DNA from: Vicinamibacterales bacterium
GTDB lineage: Bacteria; Acidobacteriota; Vicinamibacteria; Vicinamibacterales; 2-12-FULL-66-21
Length of the DNA: 64,000 nucleotides
Assembly: GCA_035699745.1 (NCBI GenBank)
Contig: DASSPH010000028.1
Location: forward strand, 1 to 64,000
Direction: 5' to 3'
A model generated the notes under the pieces. That model was not told the DNA's origin and did no database searches. It worked only from the letters and a program-made list of their open reading frames with translations. Position numbers and translations under genes: made by a program. Each line of letters begins with the position of its first letter. The first letter of the stretch is position 1. Shown here piece by piece: positions 14,081-40,433 of the stretch.

Positions 14081-14265
14081 CGGCGCTTCTTCCATTCCTT
14101 GCGCAGCTCGTTGAGCCCTTCCATGTAGACCGCGGCCTTGCTCCGCGCCTCGTCGTCCTTCAGCGTCTTGAGGATGTCGATGGCGCGCTCGAGGTCGCGC
14201 TGGATCGTCTGCGGGGTGGCCGCGAAATACATCCTGCGGATGGCGTCAATCGGATCGCCGCTCAT
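14077..14265 (-). CDS. Small conserved-looking helical protein, function unknown
   Basis: Sixty-two residues starting MSGDPIDAIRRMYFAATPQT, predicted mostly alpha-helical and very basic at the C terminus (EWKKRR). Its ATG overlaps the polX stop as ATGA, so it is translated right after polX and may serve it. A longer ORF in this frame running up to 15282 is only a shadow of polX. I do not recognise the family. Confidence 0.6.
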   Translation of the reverse strand: MSGDPIDAIRRMYFAATPQTIQRDLERAIDILKTLKDDEARSKAAVYMEGLNELRKEWKKRR

Positions 14266-16010
14266 CGCCCTCGCCTCAGGCTGCCTCGCAGGTCGTCGGC
14301 CGGCCGCGTGTTCAGCACGTCCGCCGGCGTGATCCAGGCGCGCCGCGCCACGGTCACCGCCCAGCGCAGGCCGCCGAGCGCCGTCGTGCTGTGGGCGTCG
14401 GTGCTGACCACGAGCTTCACGCCGGCCTCCCGCGCCTGCCGCGCGTGCACGTCGTCCAGGTCGAGCCGATCGATCTGCCCGTTGATCTCCATCGCCACGC
14501 CCGCCGCCGCCGCGGCCGCGATCACGCGGGTCATGTCGGCTTTGTGCGGCTCGCGCTTCAAGATAATCCGGCCGGTCGGGTGGCCGAGCACGTCCACCCA
14601 GGGGCAGGCAATCGCCCGCAGCAGGCGGTCGGTCATCGCGGCGCCGTCCTGATTGAAGCCCGAGTGGATCGAGGCGATGACGATGTCGAGCTGCGCCAGG
14701 CAGTCGTCGGCGAGATCCATGCTGCCGTCGGCGCGGATGTCGCACTCGATGCCGGCCAGCAGCGTGAAGCCGTCGAGGCGCGCGTTGACCTCGCGAATCG
14801 CGCGCGCGTGCTCGAGGGCGCGCCGCTCGTCGAGCCCGTTGGCCATGGCGAGCGACTGGCTGTGATCGGTGATGGCGAGGTAGCGGAGTCCCGCCGCCTG
14901 CGCGGCGCGCGCCATCGCCTCGATGGTGTCGCGCCCGTCGGTCGCCGTCGTATGCGCGTGGAGGTCTCCCTGCAGGTCTTCGAGCTGCAGCAGGCGGGGA
15001 AGGCTGCCGTTCGCGGCCGCCTCGATCTCGCCGCGGTTCTCGCGCAGCTCCGGCGGCACCCAGGCGAGGCCGAGGGCGGCGTAGATCCCGGCCTCGTCCT
15101 CTCCCGCGATCCTGGCGTTGTCCTCGACGCGATACAGCCCGTACTCGTTCAGTTTGTATCCGCGCTGGATTGCGCGATCGCGGAGCGCGATGTTGTGCGC
15201 TTTCGATCCGGTGAAGTATTGCAGCGCGGCGCCGAGGCTGTCGTCCGGGACCAGCCGCAGGTCCGCCTGGAAGCCGCCCCACAACCGGACGCTCGACTTC
15301 GTGTCGCCGTGGGCCAGCACGCGCTCGACCTGCCGGTACTCGGTGAAGGCGTCCATCAGCGGCGGGGTCGCGCCGTCCGCCGCCGTCTCGATGGCCGAGC
15401 GGGGCACCGCGGCCAGGATGTCGATGTCGCCGCAGGTCTCGCAGCCGCGGCGCAGGCTGCCGACGGGGACGATCGCCGCGTCCGGCGTGTGCGCGCGGAG
15501 CGCCGACACCAGGGCGGCGGCGGTGTCGTGCGCTTCGACCATCAGCCGGCGGCCCGAGAACCGGCGCCGCTCTTCGAGCGCCTCGAGGATGAGCGCTTCT
15601 TTCTTCGCGCCCATTCCCTTCAAGCCGCGGATCCGGCCGTCCCGCGCCGCGCGCTCGAGGTCCTCGAGCGTGCGCACGCCGAGATCGCCGTAGAGCCGCG
15701 CCACGGTCTTGGGCCCCACGCCCTGCAGGTGCAGCAGGTCCAGCACGGTCGGCGGGAATTCCTGCAGCAGCTCCTGGTGGTATCTGATCGCGCCGGTGTC
15801 GACGAGCTCGCCGATCTTCGCGGCCAGGTCCCTGCCGACGCCCGGCAGTGCCAGCCGCTCGGCCGCGGTCATGCCGGCGACCCGCCCCGGCTCGTGCACG
15901 ATCGTGTCCGCGGCGTTGCGGTACGCGCGGATCTTGAACGGGTTCTCCCCTTTGATCTCGAGCAGGTCGCCGATCTCCGTCAGCACGCGGGCGATGGCGA
16001 GATTGTCCAT
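14262..16010 (-). CDS. polX: DNA polymerase/3'-5' exonuclease PolX
   Basis: Family X DNA polymerase fused to a PHP hydrolase, 582 aa, a gap-filling repair enzyme. N-terminal helix-hairpin-helix parts (LALPGVGRDLAAKI, LQGVGPKTVARLY, LKGMGAKKEALI, residues about 50-145) bind DNA. The palm carries GSLRRGCETCGDIDIL with the catalytic pair Asp195 and Asp197, and QADLRLV supplies the third aspartate. The C-terminal PHP domain (about 340-575) retains DLHAHTTATDGR, AITDHSQS, GIECDI, ASIHSG, GHPTGR and STDAHST metal ligands. All catalytic elements look intact, in contrast to the paralogue at 27041-28456. Confidence 0.95.
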   Translation of the reverse strand: MDNLAIARVLTEIGDLLEIKGENPFKIRAYRNAADTIVHEPGRVAGMTAAERLALPGVGRDLAAKIGELVDTGAIRYHQELLQEFPPTVLDLLHLQGVGPKTVARLYGDLGVRTLEDLERAARDGRIRGLKGMGAKKEALILEALEERRRFSGRRLMVEAHDTAAALVSALRAHTPDAAIVPVGSLRRGCETCGDIDILAAVPRSAIETAADGATPPLMDAFTEYRQVERVLAHGDTKSSVRLWGGFQADLRLVPDDSLGAALQYFTGSKAHNIALRDRAIQRGYKLNEYGLYRVEDNARIAGEDEAGIYAALGLAWVPPELRENRGEIEAAANGSLPRLLQLEDLQGDLHAHTTATDGRDTIEAMARAAQAAGLRYLAITDHSQSLAMANGLDERRALEHARAIREVNARLDGFTLLAGIECDIRADGSMDLADDCLAQLDIVIASIHSGFNQDGAAMTDRLLRAIACPWVDVLGHPTGRIILKREPHKADMTRVIAAAAAAGVAMEINGQIDRLDLDDVHARQAREAGVKLVVSTDAHSTTALGGLRWAVTVARRAWITPADVLNTRPADDLRGSLRRGR

Positions 16011-16036
16011 GACTCAGTCCGCCCCGCCGCCCGCGA

Positions 16037-17044
16037 TCAGCGCTCTTCGAGCATCAGTCCGCGCGCTTCGATGGTGAAGTCGAGCAGGCGCGCGCCGGTG
16101 TCGTGCAGCGCCTTGCGGATCGCCGGCATCTTCTCGGGCTCGCCGAAGCAGAAGAGGCAGCCGCCGCCGCCGGCGCCGCAGACCTTGCCGCTCAGCGCGC
16201 CCGCCTGCCGCGCTGCCGCCAGCATGGCGTCGACTTCCGGCGTCGTCACGCCGGGGGCGAGCTGCTTGCGGTTGTCCCACTCGGCCGCGATCTGCCGCCC
16301 GACCTCGGTCCAGTCGCGCCGCTCCAGCGCCGTCCGCATCGCCGCCGCGATGTCCCGGATCCGCGCGAAGCTGCGGCGCACCTTGCTGTCGCCGTCGATG
16401 TGCCGCTTGGTGACGTCCCAGTTGTTGATGCCCGAGTTGCGCGAGGCGTTGGTATAGGCGAGCGCCAGCCGCGATTGCAGTTCCGCGGGCTGCACGTCGA
16501 TCGCCACGCGGCGGATGCCGCTGACGCCCAGCTCGACCGCCGAAATGCCGCCGTAGAACGCCGGCCGATAATCCTGCACGCCCGTCGGGACGTCGATCGC
16601 CTGCGCCTCGACGTTCATGGCGATCTGGAAGATCTCGTCGGGGGTGCGATGGCCGCCGCTCCAGACGTTCAGCGCGCCGCACACCGCGATGTTCAGCGCC
16701 GACGACCCGGCAATGCCGGCGCCGACGGGGGAGTCCGATCGCGTCGTCATCTCCAGCCCTTCGGCGCGGAAATGGTGCAGCAGTTTGCCGAGCAGCTTCA
16801 GGTCGTGGCTGTCGCGCAGCTGCGACCAGTGCTCCACCTCGACGCGCTGCTGCGAGTCTTCCGAGACGATGACGATGCGGCGATCGCTGCGGGACCGGAG
16901 ATCGCAGCTCGCCCGCAGGCTGATCGCGGCGTTGAGCGTCTGCGCCCCGTCGTGAAACAGGTACAGCGGCCAGATGTCGAGCGTGCCGCCGGCCAGATCG
17001 ATGCGCGTGGGTGCCGAAGCGTGGATGTGCACCGGCGAAATCAT
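16037..17044 (-). CDS. GHMP-family sugar kinase (HddA-like)
   Basis: Kinase of 335 aa with the three GHMP motifs: substrate-site APTRIDLAGGTLDIWPL at the N terminus, the phosphate loop SPVGAGIAGSSAL near residue 100, and CGAGGGGCLFCF near 290. The closest fit is the sugar 1-/7-phosphate kinase subgroup that includes heptose 7-phosphate kinase. I start it at ATG 17044 (MISPVHIH); an ORF extending to 17884 is a shadow of nagZ. It is divergent from nagZ with only 24 bases between starts. The substrate is unknown; a sugar from envelope metabolism is plausible from context. Confidence 0.82.
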   Translation of the reverse strand: MISPVHIHASAPTRIDLAGGTLDIWPLYLFHDGAQTLNAAISLRASCDLRSRSDRRIVIVSEDSQQRVEVEHWSQLRDSHDLKLLGKLLHHFRAEGLEMTTRSDSPVGAGIAGSSALNIAVCGALNVWSGGHRTPDEIFQIAMNVEAQAIDVPTGVQDYRPAFYGGISAVELGVSGIRRVAIDVQPAELQSRLALAYTNASRNSGINNWDVTKRHIDGDSKVRRSFARIRDIAAAMRTALERRDWTEVGRQIAAEWDNRKQLAPGVTTPEVDAMLAAARQAGALSGKVCGAGGGGCLFCFGEPEKMPAIRKALHDTGARLLDFTIEARGLMLEER

Positions 17045-17056
17045 ACATTGGTGCGA

Positions 17057-17062
17057 TATGAT
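17057..17062 (+). promoter_or_regulatory. -10 element for a leaderless nagZ transcript
   Basis: TATGAT lies exactly six bases before the nagZ GTG. This spacing places the transcription start at or next to the start codon, the arrangement of leaderless bacterial genes. No good -35 hexamer is visible. Confidence 0.5.
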
Positions 17063-17068
17063 CGCGGC

Positions 17069-18169
17069 GTGTCGCTCCGCGAATTGCGCCGTCATGTCGG
17101 CCAGCTGGCGATCGTCGGCTTCAACGGCCTGGACCTGCCGGCGGAGGTCCGCTCGCTGGCCCGCGAGTTCGATCTCGGCGGCGTCATCTTCTTCGCCCGC
17201 AACGTCGAGGCGCCCGAGCAGGTCGCCGATCTGTCGCGCCAGTCGCAGGCGCTGGCGGCGGAGATTCCCCTCTGGGTCAGCGTCGATCAGGAGGGCGGCC
17301 GGGTCGCGCGGCTGAAGCGGCCGTTCACCGAATGGCCGCCGATGATCACGCTCGGCCGCGCCGGCCCTGAAGCCGAACGCCTGGCCGAGCGGTTCGCACG
17401 CGCCCTCGCGCGCGAGCTGCACGCGGTCGGCATCTCCCTGGACTACACGCCGGTGCTCGACGTGTTGACCAATCCGAAGAATCCGGTGATTGGCGACCGC
17501 GCGCTGGCGGAGCGGGCGGAAGACGTCGCGCGCCTCGGCTCCGCGATCGTCCGCACGCTGCAGGCCGAAGGGATCGCCGCCTGCGGCAAGCACTTCCCCG
17601 GCCACGGCGACACCTCGACGGATTCGCACCTCGAGCTGCCGCTCCTCGATCATCCGCCGGACCGGCTCGAGGCGATCGAGCTGGTGCCGTTCAAGGCGGC
17701 GATCGCCGCCGACGTCGCCGCCATCATGACGGCGCACATCCTCATCCCGTCGCTCGACGAGGAGCGTCCCGGCACGCTGTCGCCGGCGATCGTCGGCGGG
17801 CTGCTGCGCGGCACGCTCGGGTTCGGCGGGCTGGTGCTGAGCGATGACCTCGAGATGAAAGCGATCAGCGGCCGCTACGGCCACAGCGAGGCCACGGTGA
17901 TGGCGATCGCCGCCGGCTGCGATGCGGTGCTCATGTGCGCCCCCGACCCGGCGTCACAGGCAGCGGCGCTGGAAGCGATCATCTACGCCGTCGAGCAGGG
18001 GGCGCTGCCGCTGAAGCGCGTCGAGGACGCCATGACGCGCCACCGCCGGGTGAAGGAGCGCTTCCTCGCCGCCCCGCGCCGCCAGCCCGCCAGCGGCGCC
18101 GCGCTCCGCGCCATTCTCGGCCGCGACGAGCACCAGGCGGTCGCCGCCGAAATGGCGAGGTTCGCCTAG
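17069..18169 (+). CDS. nagZ: Beta-N-acetylhexosaminidase NagZ
   Basis: Glycoside hydrolase family 3 enzyme that removes GlcNAc from cytosolic GlcNAc-anhydroMurNAc-peptides during cell-wall recycling. The 366 aa protein has WVSVDQEGGRVARLK, the mobile catalytic loop KHFPGHGDTSTDSH (174-187, His/Asp dyad) and the nucleophile region VLSDDLEMKAI (near 260). It lacks a signal peptide, consistent with a cytosolic location. I choose GTG at 17069; GTG 17051 is a possible longer start. It begins a run of recycling and synthesis genes (ldcA, mpl, murB, murA). Confidence 0.94.
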   Translation: MSLRELRRHVGQLAIVGFNGLDLPAEVRSLAREFDLGGVIFFARNVEAPEQVADLSRQSQALAAEIPLWVSVDQEGGRVARLKRPFTEWPPMITLGRAGPEAERLAERFARALARELHAVGISLDYTPVLDVLTNPKNPVIGDRALAERAEDVARLGSAIVRTLQAEGIAACGKHFPGHGDTSTDSHLELPLLDHPPDRLEAIELVPFKAAIAADVAAIMTAHILIPSLDEERPGTLSPAIVGGLLRGTLGFGGLVLSDDLEMKAISGRYGHSEATVMAIAAGCDAVLMCAPDPASQAAALEAIIYAVEQGALPLKRVEDAMTRHRRVKERFLAAPRRQPASGAALRAILGRDEHQAVAAEMARFA

Positions 18170-18173
18170 CCGC

Positions 18174-19100
18174 ATGCTGAAGCCGCGCGCGCTGCGGCCC
18201 GGCGACCGCATCGCCCTCGTCGCACCGGCGAGCTCGTTCGCGCGCGCGGAGTTCGACGCCGGCGTCGAGGAGCTGCGCCGCCTCGGGTACGAGCCCAGCT
18301 TCGACGAGTCGGTGTTCGCGCGCGCCCGGTACACCGCGGGAGACGCGGCGCTGCGCGCGGCCGCCTTCCGGCGGGCGTGGGAGGACGCCGGCGTCGCCGC
18401 CCTGATCGCCGTGCGCGGCGGCTATGGCAGCGTGCAGCTCCTCCCGCTGCTCGATGCCGCGGCGCTGCGCCGCCGGCCGAAAGCGTTCATCGGCTACAGC
18501 GACAACACCTCGCTGCTCGTGTGGCTGACCCAGGCGTGCGGCGTCACCGCGTTTCACGGTCCGATGCTGGAAGGGCGGCTCGCGAAGGGGGAATCCGGCT
18601 ACGATCGCGATTCCTTCACGCGCGTGCTCACCCGCGCGGCGCCGGCGGGCGAGATCGCGCACCCCCAGCTCGAAACGCTGCGCGCCGGAGAGGCCGCCGG
18701 ACCGTTGGTCGGGGGCACACTCAGCAACCTGTTGGCGTCGCTCGCGACGCCATACGCGTTCGATCCGCCTCAGGGCCACATTCTCTTCATCGACGAAGTG
18801 GGCGAGCGCCCCTACCGCATCGACCGCATGCTGACGCAGTTGCGCCTGTCCGGGATTCTGGCGCGCGCGTCGGCGGTGGTGTTCGGCGAGCTGCCGCGCT
18901 GTGACGAGCCGGCGCCCGCCGGTCCGGCGATCAAGGCGGTCGTCGCGGACCTGCTCGACGGATTTCCCGGCCCGGTGCTGTTCGGACTGCCGTCGGGGCA
19001 TACCAACGGCGCCTGCATCACGCTGCCGTTCGGCGTGCGCGCCCGCGTGGTGTCCGCGCCGTCTCCGGCGCTGGTCATCGAGGAGGCGGCCGTTGCCTGA
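18174..19100 (+). CDS. ldcA: LD-carboxypeptidase (S66 family), LdcA-like
   Basis: Cytosolic serine peptidase expected to remove the terminal D-Ala from tetrapeptides released during peptidoglycan turnover, producing the tripeptide that Mpl uses. The 308 aa protein starts with the family pattern LRPGDRIALVAPASSF. It has the GYSDNTSLL segment with the nucleophile serine, a FIDEVGERPYRIDRML glutamate region and the LPSGHTN histidine. It follows nagZ by four bases and precedes mpl, a logical pathway order. Confidence 0.9.
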   Translation: MLKPRALRPGDRIALVAPASSFARAEFDAGVEELRRLGYEPSFDESVFARARYTAGDAALRAAAFRRAWEDAGVAALIAVRGGYGSVQLLPLLDAAALRRRPKAFIGYSDNTSLLVWLTQACGVTAFHGPMLEGRLAKGESGYDRDSFTRVLTRAAPAGEIAHPQLETLRAGEAAGPLVGGTLSNLLASLATPYAFDPPQGHILFIDEVGERPYRIDRMLTQLRLSGILARASAVVFGELPRCDEPAPAGPAIKAVVADLLDGFPGPVLFGLPSGHTNGACITLPFGVRARVVSAPSPALVIEEAAVA

Positions 19101-19175
19101 CCGCCGGACGGGCTGGGGCGGACACGCCAGTCGGCCGTCGTCGCGCCGCAGGCACCGCCCCGCCCCCGAGGAGCT

Positions 19176-20579
19176 ATGAAAAGGATCCACCTGATCGGCG
19201 TGTGCGGGACCGCGATGGCGACGCTCGCCGCGATGCTGAAGACCCGAGGCTTCGACGTGCGCGGATCGGACCAGAACGTCTACCCGCCGATGAGCGATTT
19301 CCTCGCGGAGCAGAAGATCACGACGCTCCAGGGCTACGACCCGGCGCACATCAGCGGCGACCTGGACCTGGTCATCGTCGGCAACGCGATCTCGCGCGGC
19401 AATCCGGAACTGGAGGAGGTCCTCGACCGCAAGATCCGCTATTGCTCGCTGCCCGAGGCGATCCGCGATCACTTTCTCTGGGGGGCGCGCTCGGTGGTCA
19501 TCGCCGGCACGCACGGCAAGACGACGACCACGTCGCTGACCGGCTGGCTGCTGACCCACGGCGGCGCGGATCCGAGCGTCCTGATCGGCGGCATCGCGGA
19601 CAACTTCGGCGGCAGCTATCGCGTCGGCGGCGGGCGCGACTTCGTGATCGAAGGGGACGAGTACGACAGCGCCTTCTTCGACAAGACCGCCAAGTTCCTG
19701 AAGTACCTGCCCGACATCGCCGTCGTCAACAATCTGGAATACGACCACGCCGACATCTATCCCGACCTGGAGTCGATCCGCCTGGCGTTCCGGCGCTTCG
19801 TGAACCTCATCCCGCGGCGCGGGCTGCTGCTCGCCGGCGCGGACGACGAAGAGGCGCTGGCGCTGACGAAGAACGCGCGCTGCCGCGTCGAGACGTTCGG
19901 CCTGTCGGATCGCGCGGACTGGCAGGCGCACGACCTGCGCGTGCTCGAGGGGGGGACGGCGTTCAGCGTCCGGCGGCGCGGCGAGCCGGCGGGCACCTTC
20001 GAGGTCGCGCTGCTCGGCGCCTACAACGTCCGCAACGCGCTTGCCGCGATGGCGGTGGGCGCGGCGGTCGGCCTGAGCACGGACACCATGGCGGCGGGGC
20101 TGCGGGCGTTCAAAGGGGTGCGCCGGCGCATGCAGCTGCGCGGCAGCGCGGGCGGTGTCGCCGTCTACGACGACTTCGCGCACCACCCGACGGCGATCGC
20201 GGAAACGCTCGCCGGCGTCCGCTCCGCCTATCCGGATCGGCGCATCTGGGCCATCTTCGAGCCCCGCTCCGCGACCTCGTGCCGCAAGGTCTTCCAGTCC
20301 GAGTTCGCGCGCGCCTTCGAGCGCGCCGATCGGATCCTGCTGCCGCCGATCTTTCGCTCCACGCTGCCCGACGAACAGCGGCTGTCGGTGGAGCAGCTGG
20401 TCGGCGAGCTGAAAGAGGCGGGGAAGGACGCGCGGCATCTTCCCGGCGTGCAGGAGATCGTCGACGTCGTGTCGCGCGAGGCGCGTCAAGGGGATCTCGT
20501 CGTCGTGATGTCGAACGGCGGGTTCGACAACATCCATCAGCGCCTGCTGGACGCGCTCCAGGCGCACGCCGCGCGCTGA
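19176..20579 (+). CDS. mpl: UDP-MurNAc:L-Ala-gamma-D-Glu-meso-DAP ligase Mpl
   Basis: Reattaches recycled murein tripeptide to UDP-MurNAc using ATP. The 467 aa Mur-ligase has the N-terminal Rossmann motif HLIGVCGTAMATLA, the P-loop GTHGKTTTTS (111-120), and GDEYDSAFFDKTAKFLKY, diagnostic of Mpl as opposed to MurC. The C-terminal Mur domain carries VYDDFAHHPTAI. GAGGAG before the ATG is a clear ribosome binding site after a 75-base gap. Its presence implies meso-DAP peptidoglycan. Confidence 0.95.
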   Translation: MKRIHLIGVCGTAMATLAAMLKTRGFDVRGSDQNVYPPMSDFLAEQKITTLQGYDPAHISGDLDLVIVGNAISRGNPELEEVLDRKIRYCSLPEAIRDHFLWGARSVVIAGTHGKTTTTSLTGWLLTHGGADPSVLIGGIADNFGGSYRVGGGRDFVIEGDEYDSAFFDKTAKFLKYLPDIAVVNNLEYDHADIYPDLESIRLAFRRFVNLIPRRGLLLAGADDEEALALTKNARCRVETFGLSDRADWQAHDLRVLEGGTAFSVRRRGEPAGTFEVALLGAYNVRNALAAMAVGAAVGLSTDTMAAGLRAFKGVRRRMQLRGSAGGVAVYDDFAHHPTAIAETLAGVRSAYPDRRIWAIFEPRSATSCRKVFQSEFARAFERADRILLPPIFRSTLPDEQRLSVEQLVGELKEAGKDARHLPGVQEIVDVVSREARQGDLVVVMSNGGFDNIHQRLLDALQAHAAR

Positions 20580-20580
20580 G

Positions 20581-21267
20581 ATGGAGTTCCGCGTCCGCGC
20601 CGCCGGCGATTCGGCCTGGATCATCGAGCTGCCCGAGCGCATCGACGCCGCGGTCAACACCCGCGCGATCCGCATCGCGCGCGCGGTGCAGGAAGCGGGG
20701 CTGCCGATCACCGACGTCGTCGTCGGATACCGCTCGGTGATGGTCTACATCGATCCGCTCGCAGAGGGAGCGTCGGGCGTGGAGCGGCGGCTCCAGGAGA
20801 TCGCCGCCGATGCGGAGGAGTCCGACGCCGCTCCCGGCGCGCTGCTGGAAGTGCCGGTCTGTTACGACGGACCCTACGGTCCGGATCTGCCGGACATCGC
20901 CCGCTTCGCGCAGTGCTCGATCGAGGAGGTGATCGAGCGTCACCTCGCACTGCCGTATCGCGTCTTCGTCGTCGGGTTCGTGCCGGGGTTTGCCTACATG
21001 GCGTCTGTCGACCCGCGCATTGCCGCGCCGCGCCGGCCGTCGCCGCGGCTGAAGGTGCCCGCCGGATCGGTCGCCATCGCGGCCGGGCAGACCGGCATCT
21101 ATCCGGCCGAAACGCCCGGCGGGTGGAGCCTCATCGGCCGCTGTCCCATCCGTCCCTACGATCCCGGCCGCGCCGAGCCGTTTCTGTTCCATCCCGGGGA
21201 TACCGTCCGCTTCGCGCGGATCACCGAAGCGGCGTACCGCGCCGCCAGCCAGTGGGGGGACGCGTGA
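20581..21267 (+). CDS. pxpB: 5-oxoprolinase subunit PxpB
   Basis: Part of the PxpABC complex that hydrolyses pyroglutamate (5-oxoproline) to glutamate with ATP. The 228 aa protein contains EVPVCYDGPYGPDL, GFVPGFAYMASVDP, PRRPSPRLKVPAGSVAI and TPGGWSLIGRCP, the PxpB/KipI signature order. It starts one base after the mpl stop and overlaps pxpC as GTGA. pxpA is not in the window, so the complex must be completed from elsewhere if it works as in other bacteria. Confidence 0.92.
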   Translation: MEFRVRAAGDSAWIIELPERIDAAVNTRAIRIARAVQEAGLPITDVVVGYRSVMVYIDPLAEGASGVERRLQEIAADAEESDAAPGALLEVPVCYDGPYGPDLPDIARFAQCSIEEVIERHLALPYRVFVVGFVPGFAYMASVDPRIAAPRRPSPRLKVPAGSVAIAAGQTGIYPAETPGGWSLIGRCPIRPYDPGRAEPFLFHPGDTVRFARITEAAYRAASQWGDA

Positions 21268-22190
21268 GCGCGTCGGTGACGGTCGTCAAGCCGGGGATGC
21301 TGACCACCGTGCAGGATCTCGGGCGACGCGGATACCAGAGCGTCGGCGTGCCGGTCGCCGGACCGATGGATGCCTACTCGCATCGTCTGGCGAATCAGCT
21401 CCTCGGGAACGATCCCTCGGCGGCGGCGCTGGAGATCACGCTGCTCGGGCCGGAGCTGATCGTGGAGGGGGATCTCGTCTGCGCGACGGCCGGCGCGGAC
21501 ATTTCACTCAGCGTCGAGGGCAAACCGGCGCCGATCAACGAAGCGTTCCGCGTGCGGTCGGGCGCCCGGCTGCGGTGGGGGACGCGCATCTCGGGCGCGC
21601 GGCAGACGTTTGCGGTCGCCGGAGGCTTCGACGTGCCGGCGACGCTCGGCAGCCGAGCCACCCATCTCGCCAGCCGCATGGGACCCTTCGGCGGACGCCC
21701 GTTGCGTGCCGGGGACGTGCTGCCCGTCGGCACGCCCGGCGGCGGACGCGCCTTCGCCGGCCATCCGCTCGACGTGCCGTCGGGCGGCGCTCACCTGCGC
21801 GTCCTTCCCGCGGTGCACCGCGATCGCTTCACCGAAGACGCGTGGGGACTGCTGGTGCACGCGCGCTTCACCATCAGCCCGCAGTCGAACCGCATGGGGT
21901 ACCGCCTCGACGGTCCGGTGCTGAGCCACGCCGGCGCCGCGGACATCCTTTCCGAAGCGATGCCCTGCGGCGCGATCCAGGTTCCGTCCAGCGGCCAGCC
22001 GATTCTGTTGCTCGCCGATCGCGCGACGACCGGCGGCTACGCGACCATCGCCAACGTGATCAGCGCCGATCTGCCGATTGCCGGGCAGCTGGCGCCCGGC
22101 GACTGGATCCAGTTCGATCCCATCAACCGCGAGGATGCGATCGCGGCGCTGCGCCGCCGGGAAGCGGCGCTGCGGGGAGTGACGCGGTGA
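21264..22190 (+). CDS. pxpC: 5-oxoprolinase subunit PxpC
   Basis: Biotin-dependent-carboxyltransferase-like subunit of 5-oxoprolinase, formerly KipA. The 308 aa protein has TVQDLGRRGYQSVGVPVAG, NPD-type MDAYSHRLANQLLGN, SPQSNRMGYRLDG and the C-terminal RATTGGYATIANV motif. GTG start at 21264 overlaps pxpB, and the stop overlaps the murB GTG, so pxpB-pxpC-murB are translationally coupled. Confidence 0.92.
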   Translation: MSASVTVVKPGMLTTVQDLGRRGYQSVGVPVAGPMDAYSHRLANQLLGNDPSAAALEITLLGPELIVEGDLVCATAGADISLSVEGKPAPINEAFRVRSGARLRWGTRISGARQTFAVAGGFDVPATLGSRATHLASRMGPFGGRPLRAGDVLPVGTPGGGRAFAGHPLDVPSGGAHLRVLPAVHRDRFTEDAWGLLVHARFTISPQSNRMGYRLDGPVLSHAGAADILSEAMPCGAIQVPSSGQPILLLADRATTGGYATIANVISADLPIAGQLAPGDWIQFDPINREDAIAALRRREAALRGVTR

Positions 22191-23098
22191 CGAACGTGGC
22201 GCGGCTGCCCGGGATCGAACGGGACGTGCCGCTCGCGCCATTCACCACCTTCAAGGTGGGCGGCCCGGCGGACTGGTTCCTGCGCACCGAACGATCGTCA
22301 GAGGTGAAGGCGGCGGTGGCCGCCGCGCGGGCCGACGGGATTCCGGTCACGATCCTCGGCGGTGGATCGAACGTCCTGGTGGCGGACGCCGGGATCCGCG
22401 GACTCGTCATCCGGCTGCACGGCGGAGACGTGCTCGCGGCCGGCGACGCGGCGATCCGGGCGGACGCCGGCGTGACGATCAACGGGCTGGTCCGCTGGAC
22501 GATCAACCGCGGCGTTGCCGGCCTGGAGGGGTGGGCCGGGACGCCCGGCACGGTCGGCGGCGCGATCCACGGCAACGCGCATTTCAAGGGACGGCTGATC
22601 GGCGAGCTGGTCGATCGGGTCGAACTGCTGCGGCCGGATGGAGAGGTCGCGTGGGTCGCGGCCGCCGACATGGACTTCGGCTACGACCGCAGCCGCGTCC
22701 AGCAGACGCGCGAGATCGCGCTGGCGGTCGAGTTTCACACCGGGCGCGGCGATCCGGCGGCGCTGCGCGCCACGGCGCGCGAGTCGCTCGCGTACCGCAA
22801 GCGCACGCAGCCGCTCTCGTCGGCGAGCGCCGGCTGCATCTTCCAGAATCCCGATCCCGCGGTGGATCGCGTTCCCGAGGGCATTCCCGCCTCCGCCGGC
22901 GCGCTGGTCGATCGCGCCGGGCTGAAGGGATTCGGCAGCGGCGGCGCGCGCGTGTCCGGCGCGCACGGCAATTTCATCGTCAACGACGGCAGCGCGTCCG
23001 CCGCGGGCATCCGGGCATTGATCGAGGAGTGCCGCGCCCGCGTGCGCTCGCGGTTCGGCGTCGAACTGCGCGACGAGATCGTGTACCTGGGCTTCTAG
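22187..23098 (+). CDS. murB: UDP-N-acetylenolpyruvoylglucosamine reductase MurB
   Basis: FAD enzyme that reduces enolpyruvyl-UDP-GlcNAc to UDP-MurNAc. The 303 aa protein has FTTFKVGGPADWF, the FAD loop LGGGSNVLVAD, GWAGTPGTVGGAIHGNAH and a C-terminal HGNFIVNDG. It looks like a type II enzyme. In the proton-donor motif that usually reads GSxFxNP this protein has GCIFQNP, so Cys217 stands at the usual serine position, a variant known in some MurB proteins. The GTG start overlaps pxpC. Confidence 0.94.
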   Translation: MTNVARLPGIERDVPLAPFTTFKVGGPADWFLRTERSSEVKAAVAAARADGIPVTILGGGSNVLVADAGIRGLVIRLHGGDVLAAGDAAIRADAGVTINGLVRWTINRGVAGLEGWAGTPGTVGGAIHGNAHFKGRLIGELVDRVELLRPDGEVAWVAAADMDFGYDRSRVQQTREIALAVEFHTGRGDPAALRATARESLAYRKRTQPLSSASAGCIFQNPDPAVDRVPEGIPASAGALVDRAGLKGFGSGGARVSGAHGNFIVNDGSASAAGIRALIEECRARVRSRFGVELRDEIVYLGF

Positions 23099-23111
23099 AG
23101 GGTTTCCGCGA

Positions 23112-26258
<3,147 letters not shown>

Positions 26259-26287
<29 letters not shown>

Positions 26288-26915
26288 CGGCCCCCCTCGG
26301 AATCTTGAAGGCGAACACGTTGTCGGCGATGCCGGTGTTTTCCCGATAGTTGGTGAACGTGAACGTCGAACGGCCCCCCTGCTGGTCGGCGGCGGTCAGC
26401 GCGCGGATCTGGAGTGTCGCCTCGTCCACGGTGACGATCAGCCAGTCGTAGTCGCGCTGTTTCTGCCGCGGATCGAGGCGCAGCGCGACCGCGCCGGCCG
26501 CCGCGGTCTCGACATAGCTCACGTTGAAGTCGCGCAGCAGGCTGCCCTTGCCGGCGAGAAACAACACCGCCGTGGTCGCTTCATCGGCGGAGGGCACGTC
26601 GCTGACGATGACCTGCTTGTCGGCGGGCACGTACGAGAAGATCTTGATGCCGTCGGAGACGAAGGTCTTCTTCTCGGGCGCGGTGTATTCCCACCGCATG
26701 CGTCCGGGCTTCTTGATCTGCACGGTGCCGCGTTCGGTTGATTTCCGATTCAGCACGCCCCCCTCGTAGGCGTGGGTGAAATCGGCGGTGAAGTCTTTGA
26801 CCCGGTCGTACTTCTCCTGCAGCGCCCGGGCGGTCTCGGCCGCCGGACGACGGGATTGGCCCGGGGCAACCGCCGGGACGAGTACGAGCAGAACGGACAG
26901 CAGTAGTGGCGTCAT
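26259..26915 (-). CDS. LolA-like outer-membrane lipoprotein carrier protein
   Basis: Periplasmic protein of 218 aa with a Sec signal peptide (MTPLLLSVLLVLVPAVAPGQ). Its body matches the LolA fold: ALQEKYDRVKDFTADFTHAY, GTVQIKKPGRMRWEYTAPE, FVSDGIKIFSYVP and a C-terminal TFTNYRENTGI. LolA ferries lipoproteins from the inner to the outer membrane. The gene overlaps the start of a secretin-like lipoprotein gene, suggesting the two are expressed together. Whether this is the general LolA or a dedicated carrier cannot be told. The ATG at 26915 is chosen because it gives a clean signal peptide. Confidence 0.88.
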
Positions 26916-26957
26916 GTCGAAGCCGGACGAAACAGGCGGGGCGCAGTTCGAGTGTAA

Positions 26958-27016
26958 CCCACCTTCGCCTCCGGCTTCGGTGGGCAGGCCCACGAGTCGC
27001 CGCCGGCTTCGGTGGG
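26958..27016. repeat. Two tandem 31-32 base hairpin units (CCCACC...GGTGGG)
   Basis: Units at 26958-26984 and 26989-27016 each begin CCCAC(C), contain CCGGCTTC and end GGTGGG, giving a stem of five to six pairs with a GC-rich loop. They lie in the 125-base gap between two minus-strand genes. They resemble REP-type elements rather than the heptamer arrays. Confidence 0.75.
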
Positions 27017-27040
27017 CAGCCGCGCAATTGTGTGCACCTG

Positions 27041-28456
27041 CTACCGCGTCCGCTTGCCGGCGAGGAAGGCGCGCACGTCGGCGAGGGACCGCGTGTTGAG
27101 CACATGGCCCGGCTCCACCCACCCGCGCCGGGCGGTGCCGACGCCCATGCGCATCTGCCGCTCCAGCGCCGGGGCCCGGTGGCAGTCGCTGTCGATCACC
27201 ACCGTCGCCCCCGCCGCGACCGCTTCGCGCGCGCGCTCACCGCTGAGGTCGAGATGGGCGGGCGCGCCGTCGATCTCGAGGGCCGTGCCGGTGGCCGCCG
27301 CCGCCGCATAGATCGCGTCGTAGTCCATGTCGTAGCCGGCACGGCGCCCCACCAGCTGGTTCGCCGGGTGGGTGATCACCGACACGAACGGATGCTCGAT
27401 GGCCGCGAGGCAGCGTCTGGTCAGCCGCGTGCCGTCCTGGCCGGCCGAATCGTGGAGCGACGCGAGGACGATGTCGAGCGAGGCGAGGACGGCATCGGGA
27501 CAGTCGAGCGATCCGTCCGGCATGATGTCCACCTCGATCCCGTGGAGGATCGTCATGTCCGGCACGTCTTGCTGAAGCTGGGCGATCTCGTCCGCCTGCC
27601 GCGCGAGGTCCTCGAGCGTCAGGGTGCGCGAGGCGCCGGCGTGCTCGGAATGATCGGTGATGGCGATGTATTGGTAGCCGAGCGCCCGCGCCGCCAGCAC
27701 CATGTGCCGCAGCGGATCGCGCCCGTCGCTGTAGCTGGTGTGCATGTGCAGGTCGCCGCGGATGTCTTCGCGCGACACGAGCCGGGGTACGGCGTTGGCT
27801 CCCGCCCGATCCAGGGCGTCGGCCGAATCGCGCGTTTCCGGCGGCAGGTACGCGAGGCCGGCGTGCGCGTACGCCTCGGCTTCGGTCGCGGTGAGGCGCG
27901 GCGTTCGCCGTCTGAGCAGCGCCGCGACGTGCGCCGGGGGCCCCGTGGCCGCGAGCAGCACGCTGCCGTACTCGTCCGGCGGCGCGACGCGGACGTCGAT
28001 CTCGACCCCCTCGTACTGCACGATCAGCCGCCGCGCGTTGCGAAGCAGGATCTCTGACGCGGGCAGCAGCGCCGCGACGCACTCGGTTGCGTGGTCCGGA
28101 TTCGCCGTCCGCGCCGCGACGACGAGATGCTGGACGATCGGTTCGCTGCGGCGGACCGCGCCCGCGGCCTCCCAGACGTCCACCGCGGCGCACTGCGAGA
28201 GGCCGGACATGAAGCGATCCAGGATGTCCCACGCGCGCCCGAGGAGGATGGGACGGATCTCGTGGCGGATCCGCTCCGCCGCGCGCCGCAGCGCGCGGTC
28301 CGCCGCCGCCGGGCGCTCTTCGGCAACGGCAAGATCCAGATCGGGCAGGGTTGCGATGCCGTCACGCGCCAGCATCCGCTCCTGCGCGGCGTCGATACTG
28401 CGGAGATCACGAAGGCGCCGGAGCAGGAAGGGGGCGTTCGCGGGCGGGACCGGCAT
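27041..28456 (-). CDS. PolX-like protein with degenerate palm and intact PHP domain
   Basis: Protein of 471 aa colinear with PolX but shorter at the N terminus. Helix-hairpin-helix remnants occupy about 10-60. The palm motif that reads GSLRR...DID in PolX is GAVRRSEPIVQHL here (99-111), so both catalytic aspartates are absent, although the third-aspartate region EIDVRVAPPDE remains. The PHP domain (about 235-465) keeps all metal-binding motifs: GDLHMHTSYSDGR, AITDHSEHAG, GIEVDIMPDG, ASLHDS, THPANQ, IDSDCH. It is therefore expected to be a phosphoesterase or exonuclease without polymerase activity. It lies between a pseudokinase gene and lolA. Confidence 0.85.
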   Translation of the reverse strand: MPVPPANAPFLLRRLRDLRSIDAAQERMLARDGIATLPDLDLAVAEERPAAADRALRRAAERIRHEIRPILLGRAWDILDRFMSGLSQCAAVDVWEAAGAVRRSEPIVQHLVVAARTANPDHATECVAALLPASEILLRNARRLIVQYEGVEIDVRVAPPDEYGSVLLAATGPPAHVAALLRRRTPRLTATEAEAYAHAGLAYLPPETRDSADALDRAGANAVPRLVSREDIRGDLHMHTSYSDGRDPLRHMVLAARALGYQYIAITDHSEHAGASRTLTLEDLARQADEIAQLQQDVPDMTILHGIEVDIMPDGSLDCPDAVLASLDIVLASLHDSAGQDGTRLTRRCLAAIEHPFVSVITHPANQLVGRRAGYDMDYDAIYAAAAATGTALEIDGAPAHLDLSGERAREAVAAGATVVIDSDCHRAPALERQMRMGVGTARRGWVEPGHVLNTRSLADVRAFLAGKRTR

Positions 28457-28483: not shown

Positions 28484-31400
28484 CTACTTGATGAAGTCCA
28501 CCGAGATGGTGGCCGGTGCGCCCGCGGTGATGGTCACGGTCTGCTTCCGCTCGGGGTATTGCGGGTTCTTGAAGACGATCTCGCGCACGCCGAGGCGAAT
28601 GGGCACGTTGGCCAGCGGCGTCTCGCCGGCCTTCTCGCCGTCGATCCACACTTCGGCCCACGGCGCCGCGTTGATGTTGGCGCGTCCCTGCGGATCGAGA
28701 TCGAGCCGGGTCACTTCGCCCGCCACGATCTCGACCGTCTCGGCCGCGCTGTAGCCAAGGTCCTTGTTCACCAGGCGCAGGATGTGGCGCCCTGGGCTGA
28801 GAAGGATCTGGCTTTCGCTGGTGCCGAGCACCTTGCCGCCCTCCGATACCTGCACCACGAAGGGGATCGAGATCGCGGCGAACCCGGAGTAGAGCGGGAA
28901 GTCGAGCGTCATGACCTGACCGGCCTCGACGCGCACGGTGCGACGGGCGGACCCTTCGCTGCTGGCGATGGCGATGACGTGGCGGCCGGGTTTGACGGCG
29001 TCGATCGTCAGCGGGGTTTCGCCGGCGGGCTTGCCGTCGAGCGAGACCTTCGCACCCGCCGGTTGTGTCGTGATCACCAGGCGGCCGACGTTGGCGCCCA
29101 CCGGCGGCAGCTCCGCCGGCGCGGCGTCCGACTTGGGAATGACCTTCTTGACGGTCTCGACCATCGGCGCGGCGCTCGGTCCGTAGCCGCGGAAGACCGC
29201 GAATCCGCCGGCCAGCAGGATGACGCCGGCGGCGATCAGCTTCCACGGAATCTGCCGGCGCTCCTCGATCGGCCGGAACGGTTCGTACGCCTCGGCCGCC
29301 GACAGGGGGACTGCGACCGGTTCGCGCCGGCTCTCCGCGCGCGACGGCGCGGGCCGCTCGTCGGCCACCTTCAGGCGGATCGGCGAGCCGCTGCTCGCCG
29401 GGACCGGCGCGGGCGGCGGCGCCGGCGGGCGAATCTGCGACAGCGACGCGAGGAACTCTTCCTGCGTGGCGGCCTCGGGCAGCGGCGTCGGTGTCCACGC
29501 CGGGGGGTCGGACGGCGCCACGTAGATCGGGTACGGCTTCACCGGGGCGGCGGGCTTCGGCTCGGGTTCGGTCGCCACCGGTTCGAACGCCGCGGCGCGG
29601 TTCGGCGGCACGAGCCAGCCGCTCTTCGAGACGGCCGGCGCCTGACGGTCGGACTCCGCAGCGGGCTGCTGCTCGCGCTCGCGCTGCTCCGCCTCGAGAC
29701 GGGCCTTCTCCTTCGCGGCGCGATCCTTCTCGGCGCGCTCCTTGTCGCGGCGCTCGGCCTCGAGGCGCTCCTGCTCGCGGCGCTCCGCTTCGGCGCGCGC
29801 CCTCGCGGCGCGTTCCTGCTCGCGCTCGGCCTCCCGGCGTTCCTGCTCGAGGCGCTCCGCTTCGGCGCGCTCCTGCTCGGCGCGCTCCCGTTCGCGGCGC
29901 TCGGCCTCGGCGCGCTCCTGCTCGCGGCGCTCGGCTTCGAGCCGCTCGCGCTCGCGCCGCTCCGTTTCCAGGCGTTCCCGCTCCCGCCGTTCGGCTTCGA
30001 TGCGTTCGCGTTCGATCCGCTCGGCCTCGAGCCGGGCCTGCTCGATGCGCTCCCGTTCCAGCCGCTCGGCTTCGAGCCGCTCGCGTTCGCGGCGCTCCGC
30101 TTCCAGCCGCTCGCGCTCCCGCCGCTCCGCTTCGAGGCGCTCGCGTTCGATACGCTCCCGCTCCAGCCGCTCGGCCTCGAGGCGTTCGCGTTCACGGCGC
30201 TCCGCTTCGAGCCGTTCGCGCTCGCGCCGCTCCGCCTCGAGTCGCGCCTGTTCGATGCGTTCCTTCTCGCGGCGCTCCGCTTCGAGCCGCTCGCGCTCGC
30301 GCCGCTCGGCCTCCAGCCGCTCGCGCTCGCGGCGCTCGGCCTCGAGGCGTTCGCGTTCGAGGCGCTCGTTCTCGAGCCGCTCCGCCTCGAGCCGCTCGCG
30401 CTCGCGGCGCTCGGCCTCGAGCCGTTCGCGCTCGCGGCGCTCCGCCTCCAGACGCGCCTTCTCGATCCGCTCCTTCTCCAGCCGTTCCGCCTCGAGCCGT
30501 TCGCGCTCGCGGCGTTCGGCTTCGGCGCGCTCGCGCGCGATCCGTTCCTGCTCGAGGCGCTCGGCTTCGAGCCGCTCGCGCTCGCGGCGTTCGGCTTCGG
30601 CGCGGTCGCGCGCGGCCCGTTCCTGCTCGAGACGCTCGGCTTCGAGCCGTTCGCGCTCGCGCCGCTCGGCTTCGCGGCGCTCTTCCTCGCGGCGCGCGGC
30701 TTCCGCCCGTTCCCGCTCGGCCTCGCGTCGCGCCTGTTCGGCGCGCTCGCGCTCCTCGCGCTCCGCTTCGGCCCGCTCGCGCGCGACGCGGTCCGCCTCG
30801 ATCCGCTCGCGCTCGGCGCGTTCGGTCTCCGCCCGGCCGCGGCGTCCTGACGGCGCGTCCGCCTTCGCGGCCGGGGCGGCGTCCGCCCATTGCTGGCGAT
30901 CCGCCTCGCGGCGGACGGCGTCCGCGGCGGCGGCAATCCAGCGATCGCGCTCGGCCGCGTCCGCCACGGTGCGCTCGGCGTCCGCGGTCTCGACGTGCTG
31001 CAGGAATTCGAGCAGCGCGGCGCGGCAGGTATTGATCCCCAGCTCCTTCCGCACCAGCTTCCGCAGGTCGATCGCCGCCTCGTCGGCCGTCGGCGTCGTC
31101 CGGCGCCCGGCCAACGGCAGCGTCGCGGCGAAGTACTTGTCGACCGCGTCGGCGAAGGATTTCGATCCGCGGATGGCGGCGATCTCGTGGATCTCGTTCC
31201 TGAGCGGCGGGATCCCCTCGGGATAGTCCCGTTCCTGCAGCGCGCGTCCCACGGTGAGCGACGCGGCGATGATCGAGGCGTGCGCGAGATCGGCGGCCTT
31301 GTCGAACCGGGCGGGACCGGCGGTCGGCGGGAAGGCCAGGCGGAATTCGGCCCACAGCCGCTTGCGCGTCAGCTGCAGCCGTTCGAGCGGTTCGGCGTAG

Positions 31401-31861
31401 ATCGCGTCGAGCAGCGCGAGTTGTCCCGCGGGGGTGATCACGACCCGTCCGGGGGCGAGCGCGCCATGCGCGAGGCCGGCTTCGTGGAGGCGGGAAAGCG
31501 CGGGCAGGATTTCGAGCAGAAGGCCGAGGGCGGCGTCCAGGCCAGCGACGATGCCGTGATCGGCGGCGGCTTCGATGATGTCGGAGAGGCGGCGGCCGGC
31601 GACGTACTCCGAGAGCACCGTCAGCCGATCGTCCTGGCGTTCGGCGGCGCGCGGGCGGGGAAAGCGTTCGTCTTCCAGCGCCGCGACCAGCGCGATCCGC
31701 TCGACCAGGACCTTCTCGAACGCGCTCAGCTCGGGGCGCAGGACGAGCCGTTCCAGCATGCCGCCGGTCTCGCGATCGAACTCGAGCGCACGGCGTCCGA
31801 GGCCGTCCTCGAAGCCGGAGGACGACTGCGTTGACGCGTGATCCGGCAGGGGAACCGACAT
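28484..31861 (-). CDS. Pseudokinase - single alpha-helix - TM - PEGA repeat protein
   Basis: Protein of 1125 aa with four parts. Residues 1-320 resemble a Ser/Thr kinase fold: LTVLSEYVAGRRLSDII fits the hinge and HEAGLAHGALAPGRVVI the catalytic loop, but the HRD aspartate, DFG and Gly-rich loop are missing, so it is a likely pseudokinase. Residues about 337-740 are a charged repeat with a ten-residue period (AERRERERLE), expected to form a long single alpha-helix. A Pro-rich linker and one TM helix (about 868-888, WKLIAAGVILLAGGFAVF) lead to PEGA-type beta domains (about 920-1125). I use the ATG at 31861; a GTG six bases earlier is possible. It probably connects cytoplasm to periplasm. Confidence 0.8.
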   Translation of the reverse strand: MSVPLPDHASTQSSSGFEDGLGRRALEFDRETGGMLERLVLRPELSAFEKVLVERIALVAALEDERFPRPRAAERQDDRLTVLSEYVAGRRLSDIIEAAADHGIVAGLDAALGLLLEILPALSRLHEAGLAHGALAPGRVVITPAGQLALLDAIYAEPLERLQLTRKRLWAEFRLAFPPTAGPARFDKAADLAHASIIAASLTVGRALQERDYPEGIPPLRNEIHEIAAIRGSKSFADAVDKYFAATLPLAGRRTTPTADEAAIDLRKLVRKELGINTCRAALLEFLQHVETADAERTVADAAERDRWIAAAADAVRREADRQQWADAAPAAKADAPSGRRGRAETERAERERIEADRVARERAEAEREERERAEQARREAERERAEAARREEERREAERRERERLEAERLEQERAARDRAEAERRERERLEAERLEQERIARERAEAERRERERLEAERLEKERIEKARLEAERRERERLEAERRERERLEAERLENERLERERLEAERRERERLEAERRERERLEAERREKERIEQARLEAERRERERLEAERRERERLEAERLERERIERERLEAERRERERLEAERRERERLEAERLERERIEQARLEAERIERERIEAERRERERLETERRERERLEAERREQERAEAERRERERAEQERAEAERLEQERREAEREQERAARARAEAERREQERLEAERRDKERAEKDRAAKEKARLEAEQREREQQPAAESDRQAPAVSKSGWLVPPNRAAAFEPVATEPEPKPAAPVKPYPIYVAPSDPPAWTPTPLPEAATQEEFLASLSQIRPPAPPPAPVPASSGSPIRLKVADERPAPSRAESRREPVAVPLSAAEAYEPFRPIEERRQIPWKLIAAGVILLAGGFAVFRGYGPSAAPMVETVKKVIPKSDAAPAELPPVGANVGRLVITTQPAGAKVSLDGKPAGETPLTIDAVKPGRHVIAIASSEGSARRTVRVEAGQVMTLDFPLYSGFAAISIPFVVQVSEGGKVLGTSESQILLSPGRHILRLVNKDLGYSAAETVEIVAGEVTRLDLDPQGRANINAAPWAEVWIDGEKAGETPLANVPIRLGVREIVFKNPQYPERKQTVTITAGAPATISVDFIK
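29640..30850 (-). repeat. Coding repeat region for the E/R-rich helix
   Basis: About 1.2 kb of degenerate 30-base units built from GCTC, GCGC and TCGAG words encode a ten-residue protein period. Because codons for Glu, Arg, Ala and Leu dominate, long stop-free frames appear in other frames on both strands, none of which I consider genes. Confidence 0.85.
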
Positions 31862-31982
31862 GTGCACGGAGCCCAGCGACGGTGCAACCCGCGCTCCAAC
31901 CTGCCATTTCCGTAGTCGGGGACGAAGACCTGTGAACGCTTGGACTTACGGCGATATCAGGGGCCGCGGACGTGTCGATCGA

Positions 31983-40357: not shown

Positions 40358-40433
40358 TGGTGGACGCGGAGAGGATCGAACTCTCGGCCTCTGCATTGCG
40401 AACGCAGCGCTCTCCCAGCTGAGCTACGCGCCC
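40358..40433 (-). tRNA. tRNA-Ala (anticodon CGC)
   Basis: The 76-base gene folds into a full cloverleaf. Acceptor GGGCGCG pairs with CGCGTCC, giving the G3-U70 wobble that identifies alanine tRNAs. The D stem is GCTC/GAGC, the anticodon stem CTGCG/TGCAG with loop TTCGCAA (anticodon CGC, codon GCG), and the T arm GAGAG-TTCGATC-CTCTC. The 3' CCA is encoded. GCG is a frequent codon in this GC-rich DNA. Confidence 0.96.

Follow-up and report, generated by a model that had tools for sequence, protein, structure and literature searches.

A clade of PolX paralogues in one Acidobacteriota order with a worn polymerase centre and an altered approach to an intact PHP metal site

Noncanonical PolX proteins made up 27.5% of the PolX set described by Prostova et al. 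(2022; PMC9226535), and two of them, from Deinococcus radiodurans and D. gobiensis, have been assayed. PolX that are dead as polymerases but alive as PHP exonucleases are thus known from that study; their in vitro hallmark is Mn-dependent 3'-5' exonuclease activity with no polymerase activity. As described there, noncanonical PolX have an altered palm triad, have lost the dNTP residues of the fingers and retain the PHP metals, and their polymerase is predicted to be dead; Acidobacteria are mentioned within the main noncanonical cluster, and a full 8-kDa domain, reported in 95.3% of PolX, is a usual but not strictly defining part. A further report (PMC12926913) terms PolX variability low and describes PolX-like proteins, including those of Actinobacteria (compare NCBIfam PRK07945), which have a PolX-type PHP domain without a working polymerase and lack the palm altogether. 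In PolX of B. subtilis, residues F440, R469, R474, N498, R503 and K545 were reported to form the DNA path to the PHP metals (Rodriguez et al., PMC6616362). Alanine mutants of these path residues lost AP-endonuclease efficiency by 257- to 1384- and 1674-fold, with reductions of 480-, 514- and 1674-fold for F440, N498 and R503, respectively (PMC6616362).

We analysed a stretch of 64,000 nucleotides, here called the window, that carries a gene for a PolX paralogue and a second PolX gene (Table 1); PAR is our label for the clade of the paralogue. The PAR gene begins with ATG, and the top NCBIfam match of its product is PRK08609 (PolX; E = 3e-85, residues 190-467), at 287 bits short of the cut-off of 426 bits, which the second gene passes with 470 bits. 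Pfam recognized the PHP domain (PF02811) in the PAR protein with 43.5 bits (cut-off 26.4) and scored the thumb below its cut-off, and the 8-kDa (HHH_8), fingers and palm domains were not found in the Pfam scan of the window protein. PRK07945 (PolX-like) matched with 187.7 bits, below its cut-off of 250. In BLASTP the two window proteins were 39% identical over 336 amino acids (E = 2e-61), and phmmer paired PAR residues 72-469 with residues 160-573 of T. thermophilus PolX. A preliminary description had called the gene colinear with PolX and had noted an intact PolX elsewhere in the window: the BLASTP, phmmer and AlphaFold-model alignments agree on the former, and the latter gene, besides passing its cut-off, has a complete palm triad (DDD).

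Table 1 Features of the PAR locus in the window
Feature	Coordinates	Strand	Evidence or remark
Canonical PolX, intact, triad DDD	14262..16010	-	Pfam, NCBIfam, alignment
TPR-secretin, after LolA	24401..26287	-	PF00263, E 2e-38
LolA ORF, next downstream of PAR; real start probably further in	26259..27122	-	PF03548, E 8e-30; order kept in 39/40 loci
PAR gene, PolX paralogue with a predicted dead polymerase centre, 471 aa	27041..28456	-	ORF, NCBIfam/Pfam, PDB phmmer, AlphaFold
PHP ligands D424, H426	27179..27187	-	alignment
D396 (B. subtilis N498), H401 (B. subtilis R503); clade signature EIDGxPxHLDL	27254..27271	-	alignment
PHP ligand H363; N366 (mostly G in other PolX); Q367 (B. subtilis R469)	27356..27370	-	alignment
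PHP ligand H335; D336 (mostly S in other PolX); A338 (B. subtilis F440)	27443..27454	-	alignment
PHP ligand E308	27533..27535	-	alignment
PHP ligand H269	27650..27652	-	alignment
PHP ligands H237, H239, D244	27725..27748	-	alignment
D154, third palm Asp, kept	27995..27997	-	alignment
Former palm DxD, now H110-L-V112	28121..28129	-	alignment
Upstream neighbour: degenerate kinase, long charged repeat, PEGA	28484..31867	-	beside PAR in 6/40 loci

AlphaFold modelling on 18 PAR proteins gave a pLDDT of 91.5, and the closest structures to the PAR model were the PolX of T. thermophilus and D. radiodurans. Residues 11-471 aligned with T. thermophilus PolX 3b0y (Z 35.4, 3.4 Å over 434 residues), Foldseek matched 3auo with E = 1.3e-38, and the comparisons labelled VIA gave Z 38.5 (2.8 Å over 399 residues) to 3au6 and Z 35.6 (2.9 Å over 385 residues) to 2w9m. 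Pol lambda/beta matched the PAR model with Z 15.9 (2.2 Å, 147 residues) and a control model of the window PolX with Z of about 21, over more domains and with high rmsd. The PAR model matched the PHP enzymes YcdX with Z 27.6 (2.3 Å over 222 residues) and histidinol phosphatase with Z 22.0 (3.0 Å over 225 residues), compared with 27.4 and 21.6 for the window PolX. Because the Pol lambda/beta matches reach Z 15.9 and the YcdX scores of PAR and window PolX are equal, the palm fold and the PHP fold both persist in the models; the palm prediction suggested earlier has thus yielded a fold modelled with high confidence, whereas the actinobacterial PolX-like proteins have no palm (PMC12926913). YcdX and histidinol phosphatase share the PHP fold with PAR but not the palm, and they score alike for the window PolX, so they have no special kinship with PAR. 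A YcdX-like substrate was considered, since a YcdX histidine lies opposite H401 in one pairwise alignment; the idea was dropped because the same stretch aligned otherwise with the window PolX and the fold scores to YcdX were equal.

Similarity searches covering 60 near genomes and then 126 from the class showed a score gap between PAR and canonical PolX, with full-length PAR at 299 bits or more and canonical PolX at 229 bits or less. Of the 106 genomes of the window's Acidobacteriota order, 41 carried PAR and 65 did not, and it was found in none of the 20 genomes of the class outside that order. When 396 genomes of the phylum were searched, matches outside the order reached 248 bits at most, and the best of them was a canonical PolX with DDD. 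A scan of named genomes gave at least 10 PAR loci, judged by score and identity, among the 80 loci listed, under the labels Acidobacteria, Luteitalea, Vicinamibacteraceae and, once, Candidatus Sulfopaludibacter. Three of the 41 PAR genomes (G009, G035, G040) were counted from cut or masked pieces; canonical PolX was scored as present in G110 and G115, and in the PAR-less G099, from split or partial matches, and genomes missing from the match listings were scored as being without PAR, PolX or Ku. The masked sequence PAR_L064 was dropped after the first alignment, and L022 and a second L064 piece were also outside the alignment; L117, L159, L162 and L164 were left out of the FastTree tree. The PAR-like locus L159, which has Arg at the R503 column behind a masked stretch and lacks two metal ligands, was excluded from the PAR counts, and the signature, HhH and PHP-residue counts exclude it together with eight duplicate loci (L096-L098, L100-L104). 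The possible objection that the gene is a recent pseudogene without relatives did not hold, given relatives in 41 genomes and a PHP identity of 0.61, close to that of canonical PolX; the PAR rows read were open frames apart from one match, in G083, that runs across a TGA.

The palm alignment comprised 41 PAR proteins, 25 canonical PolX of the same order and two solved PolX; the triad was counted in the 41 PAR of the tree, with one masked row out and one named row in. The stretch GSLRRGCETCGDIDILAA of canonical PolX reads GAVRRSEPIVQHLVVAAR in the window PAR. The DxD pair was rightly described as replaced, its two aspartates now being H110 and V112, but the third triad aspartate, D154, remains. 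The triad was DDD in all 25 same-order canonical PolX, compared with no PAR protein that had all three acids; 17 had two (for example D-E-G and D-D-A), 22 had one and two had none. The loss of polymerase catalysis proposed for the window gene thus looks to extend across the clade. PAR of the window's own family mostly retain the third aspartate, and many other PAR combine the first aspartate with a glutamate at the second position (DEG). Because parsimony gives the PAR ancestor an acid at position 1 and leaves position 3 ambiguous, the wear of the triad looks progressive. A palm site rebuilt from neighbouring acids, which had been named as a possible objection, was not seen; the window PAR keeps D154 alone of the triad.

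The dNTP motif has changed as well, from YFTGS in canonical PolX to AATGP in the window PAR, with an N replaced by V, and its Y was present in 5 of 41 PAR. With triad acids and dNTP motif lost, polymerase activity of PAR is very unlikely as judged from sequence. The two arginines of GSxRR (the palm RR) were present in 40 and 41 of the 41. Mean pairwise identity in the palm was 0.301 among PAR and 0.581 among same-order PolX, compared with 0.612 and 0.618 in the PHP domain; by these values, constraint has gone from the PAR palm and is still acting on the PHP domain.

The nine PHP metal ligands (HHDHEHHDH) were complete in all 41 PAR proteins, including the window gene, whose PHP metal motifs had been reported as intact. 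The residues around them have changed. At the column of B. subtilis R503, all 41 readable PAR had His and all 117 other PolX had Arg; 9 of the 10 named PAR loci listed also had His. The N498 column was Asp in 40 of 41 PAR, as it is in T. thermophilus PolX, and the F440 column was Ala or Gly in 32. In 39 of 41 PAR an acidic residue (Asp or Glu) follows H437, where 93 of 110 canonical PolX have Ser, and the Gly three positions after H465 was Asn in all 41 PAR. The R469, R474 and K545 columns had Arg in 35, 22 and 41 of the 41, respectively. In a small comparison set (n = 14, Bacteroidetes absent), all the noncanonical PolX retained F440, N498 and R503 as well as the Gly three after H465. The set consisted of seven proteins including the assayed D. 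radiodurans exonuclease (with L137, L163, L170, AC_L227, AC_L232 and AC_L234) and seven copies from alphaproteobacterial plasmids (L246-L252). Four actinobacterial PolX-like PHP proteins also kept N498 and R503, unlike PAR. Among noncanonical PolX of other Acidobacteriota, L227 (ATE), L232 (RDR) and L234 (NDR) kept R503 and N498. The genome of the window encodes a third PHP protein of PolX type (L006, G000:C99:106110-106724, in a 405-aa frame), in which the R503 column is Arg.

Changes also affect elements with which PolX is known to grip DNA. The GxG of the first helix-hairpin-helix (HhH1) was found in 0 of 20 readable PAR, 103 of 107 canonical PolX and 6 of 7 noncanonical PolX, and that of HhH2 in 0 of 30, 97 of 107 and 7 of 7, respectively; HhH3 had it in 3 of 19 readable PAR. 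In 11 to 22 of the 41 PAR the HhH columns contain gaps or are missing. HhH2 reads G-x-R, without its second glycine, in all seven noncanonical copies from Alphaproteobacteria, so that this loop alone is not decisive. Ahead of the palm RR the window PAR has at most 101 residues, compared with 186 in the window PolX, and 13 of 40 PAR have 130 or fewer, from which the N-terminal part is judged to be eroding too. Thus PAR resembles noncanonical PolX in colinearity with PolX, an altered triad and an intact PHP metal motif (41/41), and differs in the usually conserved 8-kDa and HhH parts, whose glycines are gone, and in the R503H, N498D, S to D/E and G to N changes and the loss of F440. PHP-bearing canonical PolX (T. 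thermophilus 3au2, the window PolX) are colinear with PAR and have the same fold, but they have intact HhH, three palm acids (HVD in the window copy of PAR) and the YFTGS motif with its steric gate. The preliminary reading of a dedicated nuclease with a DNA-end-binding palm is not supported, in view of the lost HhH glycines, the 8-kDa domain missing from the window copy, the palm identity (0.30 vs 0.58) and the replaced F440, N498 and R503. Matches of about 150 residues to the N-terminal part of PolX (52-61%) were found at G122:C523:87-536, G123:C31:10085-10534, G124:C369:11881-12327 and G131:C76:79504-79953, in genomes that have neither PAR nor a full PolX, and these are possible stand-alone 8-kDa/HhH proteins.

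The phylogeny proposed earlier was run and gave PAR as a single clade on PHP-only trees (SH-aLRT 100 with 19 rows; FastTree 1.0 with 41 rows), outside the Acidobacteriota PolX group. On these trees an origin of PAR by recent local copying of the PolX nearby looks unlikely. Both placements of PAR put to the AU test were tolerated, with p-AU 0.111 when it was constrained with nine same-order PolX and p-AU 0.685 with D. radiodurans PolX, the latter constraint improving the likelihood by 14. A common root of PAR and the Deinococcus-type noncanonical cluster is thus allowed and slightly preferred. On the palm + PHP tree, PAR grouped with L160, L137, DRA and L163. Long-branch attraction among eroded palms may account for this grouping, but L160 has DDD.

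PAR, LolA and secretin lie in this order on one strand in 39 of 40 loci, and the contig of the fortieth stops 220 bases past PAR. PAR and LolA are 1.7-2.3 kb apart in 14 loci; in one of these, L070, the gene between them is a TMEM260-like transferase. The envelope genes named earlier as neighbours are indeed LolA and secretin, but the pseudokinase corresponds to a sub-threshold N-terminal Pkinase match (E = 0.19), beside a C-terminal PEGA match (E = 1.9e-21, Pfam). All 20 PAR-less loci had the secretin. In four of them (L210, L218, L219, L222) a phosphofructokinase lies 1.0-1.3 kb from the secretin and the PAR slot is closed, and in L206 a kinase-like gene occupies the PAR position; the LolA-secretin pair is independent of PAR. 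Genes for murA, murB, a PxpB-like protein, a Mur ligase, LdcA and NagZ run on the opposite strand. Reading the function from gene order was abandoned, as this block is also conserved and the secretin stays where PAR is missing; adjacency to LolA and secretin alone says little about what PAR does. The block itself lies at 16013-24368(+) in the window (NagZ-like GH3, LdcA-like S66, Mur ligase, PxpB-like, MurB-like and MurA-like genes), a peptidoglycan-recycling arrangement whose order is common to families across the order, and 123 of the 126 class genomes had a match to the lone TPR-secretin.

Ku was found in 38 of the 41 genomes with PAR and in 39 of the 65 genomes of the order that lack it; for canonical PolX the corresponding numbers were 33 and 25 (Fisher p = 0.0002 and 0.00002, respectively, in statistics that ignore descent). 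This co-occurrence favours a link of PAR to repair, with shared descent as a confounder. Canonical PolX lies 8-17 kb downstream of PAR in 18 of 40 loci, many of which were selected for a shared contig, and 8 of the 41 PAR genomes had no canonical PolX match, including G012 (100% complete) and G045 (99%).

We propose that PAR proteins are descendants of PolX that have lost polymerase catalysis and kept the PHP domain as a predicted trinuclear-metal hydrolase, which by analogy with the PHP family would hydrolyse phosphoesters through a metal-bound hydroxide. With the HhH loops and several DNA-path residues of the PHP domain lost from the sequence as well, the substrate would have moved off PolX-type DNA ends, the likeliest one being a smaller or single-stranded phosphoester that enters the PHP pocket directly, and the palm would remain as a structural shoulder. 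We give this reading a probability of roughly 0.5. Several observations weigh against it: the Arg residues at K545, R469 and R474 may still carry DNA, the palm RR and a predicted palm fold persist, the excess of Ku in PAR genomes is what a DNA-end enzyme would show (with descent confounding), and the changed sites are partly gapped or shared with other PolX, namely HhH2 in the alphaproteobacterial copies and N498D in T. thermophilus, with masked L159 having Arg at R503. A bolder form, in which PAR has left DNA metabolism and its PHP domain has been recruited in a LolA-secretin operon for a non-DNA phosphoester, with the polymerase part as a scaffold, is tentative and, in our judgement, rather unlikely. 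Gene order suggests that PAR, LolA and secretin may be expressed jointly, and an envelope role for PAR would be a guess. We know of no other DNA polymerase that has become a metabolic or envelope hydrolase.

It is quite conceivable, though in our view short of probable, that PAR is instead a noncanonical PolX of the ordinary kind, serving break repair alongside PolX and Ku as a 3'-5' exonuclease or by cleaning 3' ends, in which the PHP changes merely tune the enzyme. Its gross architecture is like that of the assayed proteins (PMC9226535), its metal site is intact, Ku and canonical PolX are commoner in PAR genomes, and grouping with D. radiodurans PolX raises the likelihood; yet R503, F440 and N498, kept by all 14 noncanonical PolX, are replaced across the clade, the HhH glycines are gone, the co-occurrence counts ignore descent, and eight PAR genomes have no canonical PolX match. 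The changed DNA-path residues speak against a normal exonuclease activity, as far as aligned residues can indicate. A structural or regulatory partner, acting, for instance, as a decoy of canonical PolX or as its docking protein, with a PHP domain that serves fold stability, would explain the predicted palm fold, the nearly invariant palm RR and the proximity of the two genes in 18 loci (many picked for a shared contig), but it is improbable, as nine invariant metal ligands are needless in a structural PHP domain and the nearly complete genomes G012 and G045 have no canonical PolX match. Decay of a functionless gene is highly improbable: the N-terminal part and the palm are eroding, 65 of 106 genomes lack PAR and five loci have a closed PAR slot, but PHP identity matches that of canonical PolX with signs of selection, new residues are fixed clade-wide, and the frames read are open apart from the G083 match. 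Scarcely credible is a PAR that remains a polymerase with other acids restoring the palm site, for although 17 proteins retain two triad acids, none has three, the dNTP motif is gone and the window copy has one acid.

PAR would accordingly be a further variant beyond the published noncanonical PolX, to judge by its residues, with the PHP entrance remade and most known DNA-gripping features gone. Among open-licence papers, a search on PolX or family X polymerases in Acidobacteriota or Vicinamibacter found nothing beyond PMC9226535, the term Arg503 appeared only in PMC6616362 among the papers listed, and no mention of a His503 PolX clade was found, supplements aside. In noncanonical PolX the PHP nuclease can outlast the polymerase; in PAR the metal centre outlasts the known DNA-handling parts too. 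The clade amounts to a natural experiment on the PHP residues that govern substrate choice (R503, N498, F440 and the residue after H437): it is rich in variants, and a canonical PolX is often encoded alongside as a control. Automatic labels such as "PolX" or "exonuclease" may mislead for this clade. As a side observation, two of the plasmid-borne noncanonical PolX used for comparison (L251 and L252, from Mesorhizobium) adjoin ligD, a neighbourhood already reported for Alphaproteobacteria (PMC9226535). The sole RNA gene in the window, in Rfam and tRNA scans, was a tRNA-Ala (CGC) at 40358-40433(-).
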